Virus record (IMG/VR): IMGVR_UViG_3300025112_000041
Span: 1-43,025 of that record
From: a virus
Direction: 5' to 3' (one strand)
DNA: 43,025 bases
This document shows, piece after piece, positions 9,048-34,175 of this stretch. The notes beneath the pieces were generated by a model that had not been told where the DNA came from, did no database searches, and was given only the letters and a program-made list of their open reading frames with translations. A program made the position numbers and the translations under genes. Positions within the stretch are counted from its first letter, which is position 1. Each line of letters begins with the position of its first letter.

Positions 9048-9142
9048 CTTTTAACCAGTGCTGTAACAGCAGCTTTAGCACGCTTCGTAAGTGCGGACTT
9101 TGCTTTCGTAGGTGTTACCTTAACTATTGCAGACGTTGCCAT
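9044..9142 (-). CDS. Very small basic peptide, 32 aa
   Basis: ORF of 32 codons, MATSAIVKVTPTKAKSALTK then RAKAAVTALVKR, Lys/Arg/Ala-rich and probably an amphipathic helix. It bridges two genes perfectly: its ATG overlaps the upstream stop (TAATG at 9140-9144) and its stop overlaps the downstream start (ATGA at 9044-9047). This double coupling is the main reason to believe it is translated. Function unknown; it is one of several tiny basic proteins in this cluster. Confidence 0.55.
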   Translation of the reverse strand: MATSAIVKVTPTKAKSALTKRAKAAVTALVKR

Positions 9143-9321
9143 TACTTCCTCTCCAACTCGTACTCAAGCTCGTTTATTGTTTTTAGCGCTTCTTTTACGA
9201 ACTCTGGGGATGCGTACGCTGCCCTTCTGAACCCCGGATGCTCCATCAGTCTTTCGCTGTTGTTCAGGTTTACGCTTACGCAACCCGTCAACAACAGCAT
9301 CAACGGCAGCGTCTTTAGCAT
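9142..9321 (-). CDS. Small lipoprotein, 59 aa, embedded out of frame (o-spanin candidate)
   Basis: Starting at the internal ATG 9321, the product begins MLKTLPLMLLLTGC, a short signal peptide with lipobox LTG-Cys14, followed by a short mature protein ending in a helix (EALKTINELEYELERK). A longer start at 9411 would bury the signal sequence and is unlikely. Most of it lies inside the 87-aa gene 9164-9427 in another frame. Nested lipoprotein plus companion gene is the classic Rz/Rz1 arrangement, and outer-membrane spanins are short lipoproteins like this. However, the companion is not a textbook inner-membrane spanin, so the role is inferred. If correct, the host is Gram-negative. Confidence 0.6.
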   Translation of the reverse strand: MLKTLPLMLLLTGCVSVNLNNSERLMEHPGFRRAAYASPEFVKEALKTINELEYELERK

Positions 9322-9427
9322 CACGCCGACTTGTTGCTTTTGATTCTTTAGCAACTCCGAAGAACTTATCCAGAATCTTCTGAAGGGCGGGTATGGCTTT
9401 AGCGATTGCATACAGGAGTTTTATCAC
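9164..9427 (-). CDS. Amphipathic small protein, 87 aa, overlapping a lipoprotein gene
   Basis: GTG start at 9427 overlaps the stop of the preceding 31-aa gene (GTGA). The N-terminus MIKLLYAIAKAIPALQKILD then KFFGV is hydrophobic or amphipathic and could associate with the inner membrane. The remainder is highly basic (RRDAKDAAVDAVVDGLRKRK). The 59-aa lipoprotein gene lies within and slightly beyond it in another frame. It might be the inner partner of a spanin-like pair, although a clear single membrane span plus periplasmic coiled coil is lacking. Family not assigned. Confidence 0.55.
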   Translation of the reverse strand: MIKLLYAIAKAIPALQKILDKFFGVAKESKATSRRDAKDAAVDAVVDGLRKRKPEQQRKTDGASGVQKGSVRIPRVRKRSAKNNKRA

Positions 9428-10296: not shown

Positions 10297-10473
10297 TCAA
10301 GTGTTCCCTGTATCTTTCTTAATCCCCTTACGCAGGAAAAGTGCAAGTAGTGCCGTAATAACGATGTTCATCATCACGCCTATTTCTATATCTCCGCTAA
10401 GGTACGCCCCTACGGCTGCGAGAACTCCCCCAACCGCCGTCATATATGTCTTCTTACCTTGTAGTCCTTTCAT
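10297..10473 (-). CDS. Small membrane protein, 58 aa (holin-like)
   Basis: MKGLQGKKTYMTAVGGVLAA then VGAYLSGD, followed by IGVMMNIVITALLALFLRKG. This gives two short hydrophobic segments (about residues 11-26 and 32-47) flanked by basic residues, a class II holin-like layout. Short KTY-start two-helix membrane proteins are common in tailed phages near lysis or virion genes. It stops 1 nt before the next gene. No endolysin is recognised in the window, so holin function is inference. Confidence 0.6.
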   Translation of the reverse strand: MKGLQGKKTYMTAVGGVLAAVGAYLSGDIEIGVMMNIVITALLALFLRKGIKKDTGNT

Positions 10474-11005: not shown

Positions 11006-11161
11006 TTATTTACCTTTCTTAAGTTGTTCTTTTATCTTCAACACAATGTAAAACAACGTCGCTGCTGATATACCTATCTTCAATATAACGTCTATCTGCA
11101 AAAGCCAGTTTCCAAGACCTGTAACAGACGCAATTCCAACTTTAATATCATCTAAACTCAT
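11006..11161 (-). CDS. Small single-pass membrane protein, 51 aa (holin-like)
   Basis: MSLDDIKVGIASVTGLGNWL then LQIDVILKIGISAATLFYIV and a basic tail KIKEQLKKGK. One hydrophobic helix at about residues 24-42. ATG at 11161 overlaps the stop of the lipoprotein-like gene upstream (ATGA). Short proteins of this kind occur in phage lysis or virion clusters and may be holins or antiholins; no functional residue can be named. Confidence 0.6.
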   Translation of the reverse strand: MSLDDIKVGIASVTGLGNWLLQIDVILKIGISAATLFYIVLKIKEQLKKGK

Positions 11162-11295
11162 TCAGTCGTTTTATCTTCATACTCTATATCAATAAAGGGC
11201 GTGTCAATCTCTAGCTTCCCCGGTAGTGACTTACACCCCGCACCGATCCAGATGATCGCCGCACTAATAATTGTAATCATTAAAAACCGCTTCAT
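11158..11295 (-). CDS. Putative small lipoprotein, 45 aa
   Basis: MKRFLMITIISAAIIWIGAG then Cys21, followed by a short acidic mature part (KSLPGKLEIDTPFIDIEYED). A basic n-region, a hydrophobic stretch and a cysteine suggest export and lipidation, although the residue at -3 is Gly rather than the usual Leu. The start overlaps the stop of the MscS-like gene and the stop overlaps the next start, both by 4 nt. It may be a second o-spanin-like or superinfection-related lipoprotein. Role unknown. Confidence 0.55.
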   Translation of the reverse strand: MKRFLMITIISAAIIWIGAGCKSLPGKLEIDTPFIDIEYEDKTTE

Positions 11296-11681
11296 TCGTC
11301 TTCGATCAGTTCTACCTTTGTTGCGCTCAACTCACTGCCTTTCGGCAAATAACAATCGCCCCCGTTTATGGGCAGTCGCCGCTCAATGGTGAGTTCCTTC
11401 AACTGACAGTTTGGAACCACCATCGTCGAGGAACGATCACTCATCTGAAAGGTTGTTGAAGTGATTCCCATTCTAATCACCCGCGCCTGTCTTCCGCTGA
11501 TATAGAGGATTTCGTCATTACGAAAACTGCTCCCCCAGAACACCAGTAAACCGGCGATAAACTTGGCCAACACATCCTTGCCCATCAACGCCACGAACGC
11601 CGCAATCAACAGCCAACCGTAGTGGCCAACCGCTTGCTCGGCTACCCTCTCCAAATACGCTGCGTCTATGCTGTTTGTCAT
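11292..11681 (-). CDS. Mini MscS-like mechanosensitive channel protein, 129 aa
   Basis: Residues 22-50 (hydrophobic, with GKDVLAKFIAGLLVFW) resemble the pore-lining TM3 helix of MscS. They are followed directly by a segment like the MscS beta domain: FRNDEILYISGRQARVIRMG, TSTTFQMSDRSSTMVVPNCQ, with the typical F-x-x-x-E-I, central G-V-I and PN (90-91). In MscS the equivalent is FRVGD-I-G-V-T-PN. Full-length MscS has about 286 residues and three helices plus an alpha/beta vestibule; only the core is present here. It sits with lipoproteins and holin-like genes, so a membrane role at lysis or infection is plausible. Codon and word use differ from neighbours (no CTAG), suggesting recent acquisition. 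Confidence 0.65.
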   Translation of the reverse strand: MTNSIDAAYLERVAEQAVGHYGWLLIAAFVALMGKDVLAKFIAGLLVFWGSSFRNDEILYISGRQARVIRMGITSTTFQMSDRSSTMVVPNCQLKELTIERRLPINGGDCYLPKGSELSATKVELIEDE

Positions 11682-11701: not shown

Positions 11702-11938
11702 CTATTCAGCGGATGCTTCCTTCTGTTCGGGTTCCGCTTTCGCCTCCAGACTCGCCGTCAGCAAAGCCATAAAATGACTCCTGCCGCCGTGCGCCTGTTC
11801 CAAGTTGAAGCTGATCTGTCGAATCTTGTTCTCAAGATCAGCAACGTGGTTCAGCAACACAACTTGTTCTTGTGACAAGTCCGCTGCGTTATGTTCTGCA
11901 CCGTTGATAATAACGGTCTTTTCTTTTTCTTCGGCCAT
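11702..11938 (-). CDS. Small coiled-coil protein, 78 aa, next to the tail fibre gene
   Basis: MAEEKEKTVIINGAEHNAAD then a heptad-like helix (LSQEQVVLLNHVADLENKIR onward). Small proteins of the form x-VxINGxEYxxxDLS followed by a coiled coil are frequent next to fibre genes in marine and freshwater phages, as far as I recall. The ATG is 3 nt downstream of the S74 fibre stop, so the two are probably co-translated. It may be a fibre-associated or assembly factor; function not established. Confidence 0.6.
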   Translation of the reverse strand: MAEEKEKTVIINGAEHNAADLSQEQVVLLNHVADLENKIRQISFNLEQAHGGRSHFMALLTASLEAKAEPEQKEASAE

Positions 11939-32479: not shown

Positions 32480-32694
32480 ACGATAACGAACGAGAACTAT
32501 GGGTGCATAACGACGAAGGACTATACGCTATGTGGCAAGCATCTAGGCTAGGTATGCGTAGATTCATACGTATGCACAGAACAATAATAGACAACTACAT
32601 AAGCCAGAGTTTAGCTTGTAAACATGACATACAACCTGCTTGCAAGCTATACGCACAATACTATAACCTAACATATCATGAGAAAAATAACTAG
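32476..32694 (+). CDS. Hypothetical early protein, 72 aa
   Basis: MNDNERELWVHNDEGLYAMW, then helical residues rich in Arg, Met and Tyr with Cys at about 57 and 64. AGGAGG lies 10 nt upstream. Its 3' end overlaps the next gene by 17 nt. Soluble and unassigned. Confidence 0.6.
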   Translation: MNDNERELWVHNDEGLYAMWQASRLGMRRFIRMHRTIIDNYISQSLACKHDIQPACKLYAQYYNLTYHEKNN

Positions 32695-33070
32695 ACTAGC
32701 CGCTCGCGCTTTCATAGAAGGGCGAAGGTTTCGCAGAGACAACACGTTCGTTACGGTCAGCGAGTATCATATCAAGTTTGAAGGCAGATCAAAAGAAGAA
32801 ATTCTTGCTATACTTGAACGATACAGCACAACTGTACATAGCCAACGGATGTGGCTACATGGCAACCTAATAGCAGAGAACACTAGTGCTAAAGGGCTAC
32901 GCATCACGCTAGCAGGTTGGCCTACAACTACCACACGTGAGCGTTTGAACGGCTTGCTAACGGAGCTAGGCAAACGTGAGGGTATCTGGCAACGTAACCA
33001 CGAGCAATACTACGGCACACACGACGATAACAGAGTCATAGACTCTAGCGAATGGATAACAGTATCATGA
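32678..33070 (+). CDS. Hypothetical early protein, 130 aa
   Basis: MRKITRLAARAFIEGRRFRR at the N-terminus is strongly basic; the middle has beta strands (NTFVTVSEYHIKFEG) and helical SKEEILAILERY, and the C-terminal half a repeat of strand-helix (LRITLAGWPTTTTRERLNGL). This alternation could be a ferredoxin-like or small nucleic-acid-binding fold. No known motif. Ends in an ATGA overlap with the next gene. Confidence 0.6.
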   Translation: MRKITRLAARAFIEGRRFRRDNTFVTVSEYHIKFEGRSKEEILAILERYSTTVHSQRMWLHGNLIAENTSAKGLRITLAGWPTTTTRERLNGLLTELGKREGIWQRNHEQYYGTHDDNRVIDSSEWITVS

Positions 33071-33441
33071 CAAATAAAACAACAATAAAGGAGGACTTAG
33101 CGTGGCTGATGGATAACAGTCTAAAGCAACGGTTTAGCGATAGCAGTCTTGCGAGATCGCGTAAGCCAAGCGCCTATAATAGCGAGAGTTGCCCTCAGAT
33201 AGCGTTGCTTGCCCCTCGCACACACGCGGCACAGCCATATAATGAGCGCGAAGTTATCCTCACGAACGAGCCTGCATACGTTACAGTTAAGCTGAGTGAA
33301 GGTTGGGAAGCTATGCTAAAGACACACTACGATGAGCGCATACTGCTTGACAAGGGGCCGGTGCATAGGTACAATGGCTGGGTGCGTAAGATAGTCGAAC
33401 CTATCTACGCTGCTGTTCGCAGACAACGAAGGAAATACTAA
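33067..33441 (+). CDS. Hypothetical early protein, 124 aa
   Basis: Start at 33067 overlaps the previous stop (ATGA), preferred over 33052. MTNKTTIKEDLAWLMDNSLK, a Ser/Arg-rich middle, and a C-terminus (GWEAMLKTHYDERILLDKGP then VRRQRRKY) that is basic. The 3' part contains a consensus-like sigma70 promoter for the activator gene that follows with a TAATG overlap. Function unknown. Confidence 0.6.
   Translation: MTNKTTIKEDLAWLMDNSLKQRFSDSSLARSRKPSAYNSESCPQIALLAPRTHAAQPYNEREVILTNEPAYVTVKLSEGWEAMLKTHYDERILLDKGPVHRYNGWVRKIVEPIYAAVRRQRRKY
33347..33375 (+). promoter_or_regulatory. Sigma70 promoter ahead of the sigma54-activator gene
   Basis: TTGACA (33347-33352), exactly 17 nt, TACAAT (33370-33375): 11 of 12 consensus bases. 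It lies inside the previous coding region, about 66 nt before the activator ATG, so the activator can be made from its own early transcript. Confidence 0.7.
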
Positions 33442-34175
33442 TGGCTACCAGCACAGAAGTTAATAGGCTTAACAAACGCCTAGCTGCCTACCGTACCATC
33501 GACGACTACATGAAGCAGTTGTTAAAGAACACTATCACGTTGTCGTTTCGTAGTGAACCCGTGCTTATCACAGGCGCTACCGGCACAGGTAAGGAGATAA
33601 TAGCTAGCCTGCTGCACGGCACGCAGCTAAAAGATATAGTTACCGTAAACACAACAGCCGTAACAAACACGCTCTTCGAGTCTGAGCTATTCGGCCACAT
33701 AAAGGGTAGCTTCACAGGTGCGATTCGTGACCGCAAAGGCTTGGTAGATGTCGCTAAGAACGGTACGCTATTCCTAGATGAGGTAGGTGATATGCCGCTA
33801 GACTTACAAGCTAAGATACTACGCCTCGTACAGTTCGGAACGTACCGTCCTATAGGAGATAACGTAACGCGCAACACAAACTGCCGTATCGTAGCAGCAA
33901 CCTGCAAACCTATAAACAAACTCATCGCAGAAGGTAAGTTCCGTGACGATTTATACTACCGTCTGGCAGCGTTCCGCCTACACATCACTCCGCTATCAGA
34001 ACGTCGCCACGATGCGAAGCATTTTCTTGTAACACATCCGCTCTGGCATAAGATACCAAGCGATCATAAAGAAAAGTTCCTAACGTACGTTAACAACGAC
34101 CCTATGAACGGCAATTACCGTGAGCTAGAACAACTAATGTTACGATATGAAGTTCTAGAACAACTACCCGGCTGA
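33441..34175 (+). CDS. Stand-alone sigma54-dependent transcription activator (NtrC-type AAA+ domain), 244 aa
   Basis: Remodels sigma54-RNA polymerase by ATP hydrolysis to open -24/-12 promoters. Key elements are in canonical order: Walker A GATGTGKE (45-52), ESELFGH (80-86), the sigma54-contact loop GSFTGA (89-94, consensus GAFTGA), Walker B TLFLDE (109-114), sensor I AATC (152-155, usually AATN), arginine fingers R168 and R174 in GKFRDDLYYRL, and sensor II GNYREL (224-229). It has neither the N-terminal receiver/GAF domain nor the C-terminal Fis-type helix-turn-helix; the chain ends 15 residues after sensor II. It is thus likely constitutive and may work from solution or with another DNA-binding protein. 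It ends the early operon and is followed within 45 nt by a sigma54-type promoter. Confidence 0.93.
   Translation: MATSTEVNRLNKRLAAYRTIDDYMKQLLKNTITLSFRSEPVLITGATGTGKEIIASLLHGTQLKDIVTVNTTAVTNTLFESELFGHIKGSFTGAIRDRKGLVDVAKNGTLFLDEVGDMPLDLQAKILRLVQFGTYRPIGDNVTRNTNCRIVAATCKPINKLIAEGKFRDDLYYRLAAFRLHITPLSERRHDAKHFLVTHPLWHKIPSDHKEKFLTYVNNDPMNGNYRELEQLMLRYEVLEQLPG

Follow-up and report, generated by a model that had tools for sequence, protein, structure and literature searches.

A minimal MscS core encoded by phages is paired with a small lipoprotein gene, and its place appears open to a coiled-coil-like protein

The stretch of viral DNA analyzed here, which we call the window, comprises 43,025 nt of IMG/VR record IMGVR_UViG_3300025112_000041. 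On its minus strand lies a run of small genes that includes a 129-aa protein resembling the core of the mechanosensitive channel MscS, hereafter mini-MscS. The features of this region are as follows.

11702..11938, minus strand: upstream 78-aa protein, matching phrog_21153 (unknown function)
11681..11292, minus strand: mini-MscS gene, 129 aa, ATG start and TGA stop, with a PF00924 match and a fold match
Mini-MscS residues about 2-50: N-terminal segment and TM3-like helix
Mini-MscS residues about 52-102: MscS beta-domain
Mini-MscS residues 103-115: conserved tail motif LPxNGGxxYLPKG
11158..11295, minus strand: the 45-aa partner lipoprotein, with lipobox GAGC and a mature part of 25 residues, the Cys included
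11006..11161, minus strand: tm1, a 51-aa small membrane protein, holin-like by size and hydropathy alone
10297..10473, minus strand: tm2, a 58-aa hydrophobic protein with weak similarity to a holin PHROG
9164..9427, minus strand: ORF of 87 aa, overlapped in a different frame by a lipoprotein ORF and Rz-like in its arrangement only
9142..9411, minus strand: second lipoprotein ORF, Rz1-like by arrangement, with a likely internal start at MLKTLPLMLLLTGC

In the window, the mini-MscS and partner lipoprotein genes share 4 nt (ATGA) where the first stops and the second starts, and the lipoprotein and tm1 genes likewise overlap by 4 nt, which suggests that translation of the three is coupled. We clustered the ORFs of 65 loci, including the window, and found the lipoprotein (median 50 aa) in every one; with six further loci (L091-L096, 6/6) it stands beside mini-MscS in 71/71 loci of its own clade. 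The small membrane protein tm1 (about 51 aa) was present in 65/65 clustered loci and in five of the six others, being missing from L093, while tm2 (about 58 aa) was found in 62/65 and the overlapping ORF pair with the second lipoprotein (window 9142-9427, minus strand) in 42/65. The phrog_21153 protein, which stops 20 nt ahead of the mini-MscS start, occurs in 23/65 loci and is thus no fixed partner. The partner lipoprotein is very short, with a median of 25 mature residues, and carries Lys at position +2 in 52 of the 65 loci that could be scored, the lipobox detector having missed six of 71. By lipoprotein sorting rules, Lys at this position favors the outer membrane.

We searched these neighbors for similarity to known lysis proteins. 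There was no family match for tm1 or for the overlapping ORF pair, and tm2 resembled phrog_3428 weakly (E 0.055, and E 0.018 for another member). At L102, the gene occupying the position behind tm1 has a holin-family match (phrog_9987, E 1.7e-8); within the window cassette, no protein firmly matches a lysis family. The endolysin-type families PF01510, PF08291, PF00959 and PF01464 were absent from 13/13 records, which are possibly fragments. Where the first-pass annotation had placed the gene among holin-like and lipoprotein genes, the lipoprotein and the small membrane genes are present, while similarity to named holin families is weak. A conserved protein of 108-111 aa with a signal-peptide-like start also follows tm1 at L165 (1755-2090) and at L163, L166 and L096.

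The wider surroundings of mini-MscS are those of a structural (late) block, with a large terminase (phrog_2), an SU10-like portal (match under the Pfam cut-off) and an adaptor (match above it); the same window encodes a tail spike of 1110 aa that carries an S74 chaperone. In phage isolates, the terminase has distant relatives only, Akkermansia phages being foremost at 31% identity, and therefore no host can be named. No relatives of tm1, the adaptor, the second lipoprotein or a 746-aa structural protein were found in phage isolates. Elsewhere in the window, the plus strand encodes a 244-aa AAA+ protein with a sigma-54 activator domain (33441-34175; PF00158, E 1.1e-52), a type of protein that is unusual in a phage replication block, as well as a 130-aa protein (32678-33070) with a match at E 1.1e-12 to PF23790, the Kyanoviridae Gp96 family, whose name derives from cyanophage-like viruses.

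Residues 36-97 of mini-MscS match PF00924, the MscS beta-domain (E 7.7e-6; 26.4 bits, the curated cut-off being 20.2 bits), with the aligned stretch spanning positions 1-61 of the 68-position model. Among the viral records searched, 22/23 (13/13 and 9/10) exceeded this cut-off with a single match each, the remaining record, G015, scoring 18.9 bits. The Pfam search of mini-MscS returned nothing besides PF00924, and hence no holin or spanin family; the protein may nonetheless have a holin-like action. PHROG searches up to E 1 gave no match, and phmmer against PDB sequences gave weak matches with MscS-family channels on top (best E 0.053). In an alignment of 30 rows, G44 and P90 were kept in all 30, N40 in 27 and N91 in 26, the window protein having K at position 40 instead of N; we take these four positions to align with the conserved TM3b and PN positions of MscS. 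The tail carrying LPxNGGxxYLPKG (residues 100-129; window 11292-11384, minus strand) is conserved too, although the MscS sequence matches do not extend to it and it falls outside the confidently modeled part.

An AlphaFold2 model built with 25 relatives, of modest confidence (mean pLDDT 65), consists of one long helix (residues 2-50) followed by strands at 58-61, 64-71, 75-80, 86-90 and 99-102 and a helix at 91-96, residues 104-129 being unreliable. The order of the strands and the short helix are those of the MscS beta-domain. A second model with 30 relatives had nearly identical elements at a lower pLDDT of 58.5. When the single-chain model was compared to the PDB with Foldseek, 46 of the 50 matches listed bore MscS, MscK, YnaI, MSL or Flycatcher titles, and the other four bore the title "a membrane protein" only; E-values reached 7.2e-4. 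VIA-align comparisons, among them the Trypanosoma cruzi TcMscS chains 9bgq, 9bgt and 9bgu, gave Z up to 8.0 with an rmsd of 6.6 over 101 residues, a middling value when taken alone. In a viral structure library, two close folds without names (104 aa at E 3.6e-6, 129 aa at E 2.6e-5) were followed by MscS-like proteins of eukaryotic viruses. The likeness of mini-MscS to MscS exceeds chance, and an MscS core fold is well supported.

Relative to canonical MscS, the C-terminal alpha/beta vestibule and beta-barrel are absent: beyond the beta-domain only about 30 residues remain, so the vestibule is missing. At the other end, we compared 64 relatives for upstream stops. Of these, 62 were full length (127-138 aa). 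In 55 of the 62 the ATG directly follows a stop codon, and the remaining seven have a stop 3-4 codons ahead of it, which means that TM1 and TM2 cannot be encoded in frame. The first-pass annotation had described an MscS core, with a TM3-like helix and beta-domain in 129 aa and with the first two helices and vestibule removed, and had called for a predicted structure resembling MscS; the domain match, the fold search and the stop codons agree with all of this, and its coordinates (11292-11681) were right, to which the minus strand can now be added. The truncated protein is also strongly conserved, with 56 invariant residues across 63 sequences (window included), a lowest pairwise identity of 62% and a median dN/dS of 0.067 (from 30 usable pairs of 253, 199 pairs being saturated). 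The stretch YISGR of the ring domain is fixed in 13 diverse phage members, which suggests self-assembly.

Profile scans of IMG/VR identified 70 loci. A scan with L096, the most divergent kind among those 70, gave 46 loci, 44 of them on new contigs, and a scan with L211 gave 29 loci, six on new contigs. Counting from the listed contig names in IMG/VR, at least 120 viral contigs, reaching 144 kb in size, encode relatives of mini-MscS. Every readable relative shares one plan and has 127-208 aa when measured from the first start codon; L224 (wrong frame) and L221-L223 (start codon not found) were left out of the protein reading for the L096 scan. With tblastn over 50,697 phage records, no relative of the window protein, L182 or L211 was found, and the trimmed L096 protein, searched to E 10, gave chance-level matches only (E 3 or worse), an annotated bacterial MscS gene among them. 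Two pattern-based scans of genome collections, reaching close relatives only, yielded no cellular or prophage relative at E 1e-3. MscS-family genes were present in 14/14 control cellular genomes.

The pairing with a lipoprotein extends to a second clade. In the set L179-L197 (L179 and L180 lie on the contigs of L096 and L095, respectively), a lipoprotein was found at the mini-MscS stop in 19/19 loci, 12 by the generic lipobox and 13 by similarity, which together cover all 19. In the three large-phage members with a PhoH-like neighbor that were examined (L182, L183 and L197), the two-gene unit lies beside that gene and not beside a lysis cassette; the PhoH match was confirmed for L197. In two other sets, no lipoprotein followed mini-MscS in any locus examined (0/9 in L198-L210, four left out; 0/13 in L211-L224, one left out), and none was found by similarity. 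Mini-MscS and the lipoprotein thus seem to travel together, and mini-MscS also occurs by itself. The stand-alone copies and the PhoH-adjacent units indicate that a role in lysis may not be general.

To sample related phages we used tm1, as a terminase scan gave a single locus. The tm1 scan produced 253 loci, and we analyzed the best 80 of these. Mini-MscS preceded tm1 in 19 of the best 80, a coiled-coil protein took its place in 22, neither was present in 37, and two ended too early to tell, showing the lipoprotein at the contig end. The lipoprotein was found in 19/19 mini-MscS loci and 22/22 coiled-coil loci and in 0/37 loci without either partner, 26 of which have at least 900 nt of upstream sequence. 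The two partners occurred together in none of the best 80. A generic lipobox detector gave a consistent picture at poor sensitivity, finding 11/19 and 7/21 lipoproteins where the profile method detects them and 0/35 in the partnerless loci, two of the 37 having too little upstream sequence; a Fisher value obtained alongside takes no account of relatedness and is given no weight here. The alternative occupant, found at 711-1007 in L099 and in 21 more tm1 loci, has about 98-100 aa, one hydrophobic stretch and a coiled-coil-like tail, is without MscS similarity, and matches phrog_18771 (unknown function, E 4.7e-10). Its lipoprotein neighbor is nevertheless the same: 19 of 25 mature residues are identical, by eye, between L099 and the window. 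On a tm1 tree, there are at least six changes between the mini-MscS and coiled-coil states, although this tree is built on 147 nt, is noisy and omits two loci. Because the partner is swapped while the lipoprotein stays constant, the inner-membrane partner appears to be exchangeable. A weak relative of the coiled-coil protein (30% identity, E 8e-3) was also seen in Methylophilales phage Melnitz-3 (L178, 5995-6342), where it directly precedes phage-encoded curli export genes, CsgF and CsgG.

Absence from related phages with frequent decay would, according to the first-pass annotation, have counted against its proposal. This objection does not apply, as relatives are numerous and intact; the gene is, however, optional in related phages, being present in 19/80 among the best 80 of 253 tm1 loci.

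What might such a protein do? Tentatively, we consider the most likely role to be that of a lysis-phase inner-membrane pore working with the lipoprotein, since the gene sits within the structural block and has small hydrophobic and spanin-like neighbors. Mini-MscS would be a minimal MscS-type pore subunit, with one TM3-equivalent helix and a beta-domain ring under the pore, and several copies, probably seven, would assemble in the host inner membrane with the N-terminus outside and the ring inside. By analogy with microsporidian MscS2 and TcMscS, a ring with a TM3 pore should be expected. With neither TM1/TM2 paddles nor a vestibule filter, the opening would be small and poorly selective. The protein would be translated together with the short lipoprotein, and the pair would act as a unit, made late in the window's phage group, with small genes of holin-like and spanin-like character adjoining it; towards the close of infection it may permeabilize or depolarize the inner membrane, helping to trigger or time lysis. 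We infer the oligomer, topology, conduction, gating, late expression and lysis role alike. Against this reading stand the modest confidence of the model, the absence of a firm lysis-family match in the window cassette and of the four endolysin-type families in 13/13 records, and the report that E. coli MscS stripped of both vestibule domains fails to insert into membranes (PMC11262690, citing others). Among the functions proposed in the first-pass annotation, a role in lysis is plausible and one in osmotic response possible. More broadly, the data could reflect a two-component envelope system, in which an inner-membrane oligomer, either a stripped MscS or a coiled-coil protein, works with a tiny lipoprotein, and in which the MscS version is a pore used in lysis; taken as a whole, this proposal is somewhat doubtful.

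Alternatively, the pore may serve the infected cell rather than end it, venting ions or small solutes as envelope tension or internal osmolarity increases so that the virocell stays intact until virions are ready, with the mechanism of bacterial MscS and its gating pared down. The stand-alone copies in other phage clades, distant from lysis-like genes, would fit this, as would TcMscS, which retains mechanosensitivity with no more than TM2, TM3 and the beta-domain (PMC12334622). We nonetheless find it rather unlikely: mini-MscS is without any sensor paddles, the obligatory lipoprotein and the coiled-coil replacement are left unexplained, and the control cellular genomes (14/14) already have MscS-family genes of their own.

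The partner swap with a conserved lipoprotein would be accommodated if the oligomer were a platform for an outer-membrane lipoprotein that modifies the envelope or excludes superinfecting phages, its pore function having been lost and the coiled-coil protein being an equivalent platform through another fold. In some phages, lipoproteins adjoining tail-spike or receptor genes act in exclusion, and both the shortness of the lipoprotein here and its frequent Lys at +2 (52/65 scored) agree with this explanation. It is unlikely, however, since the strong conservation of pore-helix and beta-domain positions, with 56 residues invariant over the 63 protein sequences, fits an assembled ring or pore better than a mere anchor.

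Subunits could also co-assemble with host MscS, as the first-pass annotation had suggested, either blocking or unlocking the channel in a dominant-negative manner. The TM3/beta-domain core forms inter-subunit contacts in MscS, and mini-MscS retains this core. Co-assembly is nevertheless disfavored, to the point of being very improbable, because a non-MscS protein fills the slot in 22 loci with the lipoprotein partner unchanged; furthermore, no cellular relative was detected at E 1e-3 in the two scans reaching close relatives only, and YISGR is fixed in the 13 diverse phage members. Finally, a decayed host-channel fragment or chance ORF, to which the shortness of the protein and its cuts at both ends relative to MscS might point, is rejected on the conservation data, since at least 120 contigs carry one architecture throughout with a fixed start and a low median dN/dS, indicating a gene that is maintained and not in decay.

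Work on minimal MscS proteins seeks to learn what a channel must retain in order to assemble and to sense force, and the natural set on at least 120 phage contigs, with one membrane helix before the ring domain, would constitute a strong test bed. If the pore does act in lysis, it would be a new pore fold among phage lysis proteins and would tie mechanosensitive channels to lysis timing; if the two-component proposal is true, phages have made a lysis pore, among the smallest of the MscS type, out of the central part of a bacterial safety valve. The partner swap provides a direct genetic handle on the job of the lipoprotein unit.

Several known systems resemble the phage proteins in part. E. 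coli MscS has 286 residues, three membrane helices, an alpha/beta vestibule and a beta-barrel; its TM3, beta-domain and PN motif (2oau, 2vv5 and others) align with mini-MscS, whereas its TM1, TM2 and vestibule have no counterpart there. Holins and two-gene spanins are likewise small late membrane proteins, and spanins combine an inner-membrane protein and a lipoprotein from overlapping genes. Inner spanins have a periplasmic coiled coil. The folded domain of mini-MscS differs from this in being an MscS ring, probably cytoplasmic, and its model has a beta-domain and no coiled coil, the topology being taken from homology alone; a spanin reading of mini-MscS was set aside, as the gene arrangement with its overlapping lipoprotein fits and the predicted fold does not. 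Giant-virus MscS-like genes (Aureococcus anophagefferens virus, Sylvanvirus) are also virus-encoded relatives of MscS, although their proteins are larger (261 and 651 aa) and their hosts eukaryotic. MscS-like genes have been reported from large viruses of eukaryotes (PMC6163359, which in the text consulted names mechanosensitive channels from large DNA viruses only), and MscL genes from Caudoviricetes (PMC13288924). In a literature search of one open-licence collection, no paper describing an MscS core in phages turned up.

The closest parallel in plan comes from microsporidia. As described in PMC11262690, MscS2 of Nematocida displodere consists of a TM3-like helix and beta-domain only, as does mini-MscS, with at least two of three membrane helices gone and the vestibule partly lost, and it forms heptamers by cryo-EM. 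The same text states that E. coli MscS without both vestibule domains is not inserted into membranes (PMC11262690, citing others), and that the N-terminal truncation is, to its authors' knowledge, unique to microsporidia; on that statement, the phage proteins are a second case. Unlike mini-MscS, MscS2 belongs to a eukaryotic parasite, with a gene of bacterial origin, and no lipoprotein partner is reported for it in the consulted text of PMC11262690. TcMscS, as described in PMC12334622, is a miniature core without TM1 and the C-terminal part, has a short N helix, and is a demonstrated mechanosensitive channel; it keeps TM2, whereas the mini-MscS model has one helix ahead of the beta-domain. Together, TcMscS and MscS2 show that minimal MscS proteins can form heptamers (PMC12334622, PMC11262690). 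The PF00924 domain family and an equal truncation in microsporidia are therefore already known, and what is new here is the pairing of mini-MscS with a small lipoprotein gene and the apparent exchange of the membrane partner beside that lipoprotein.
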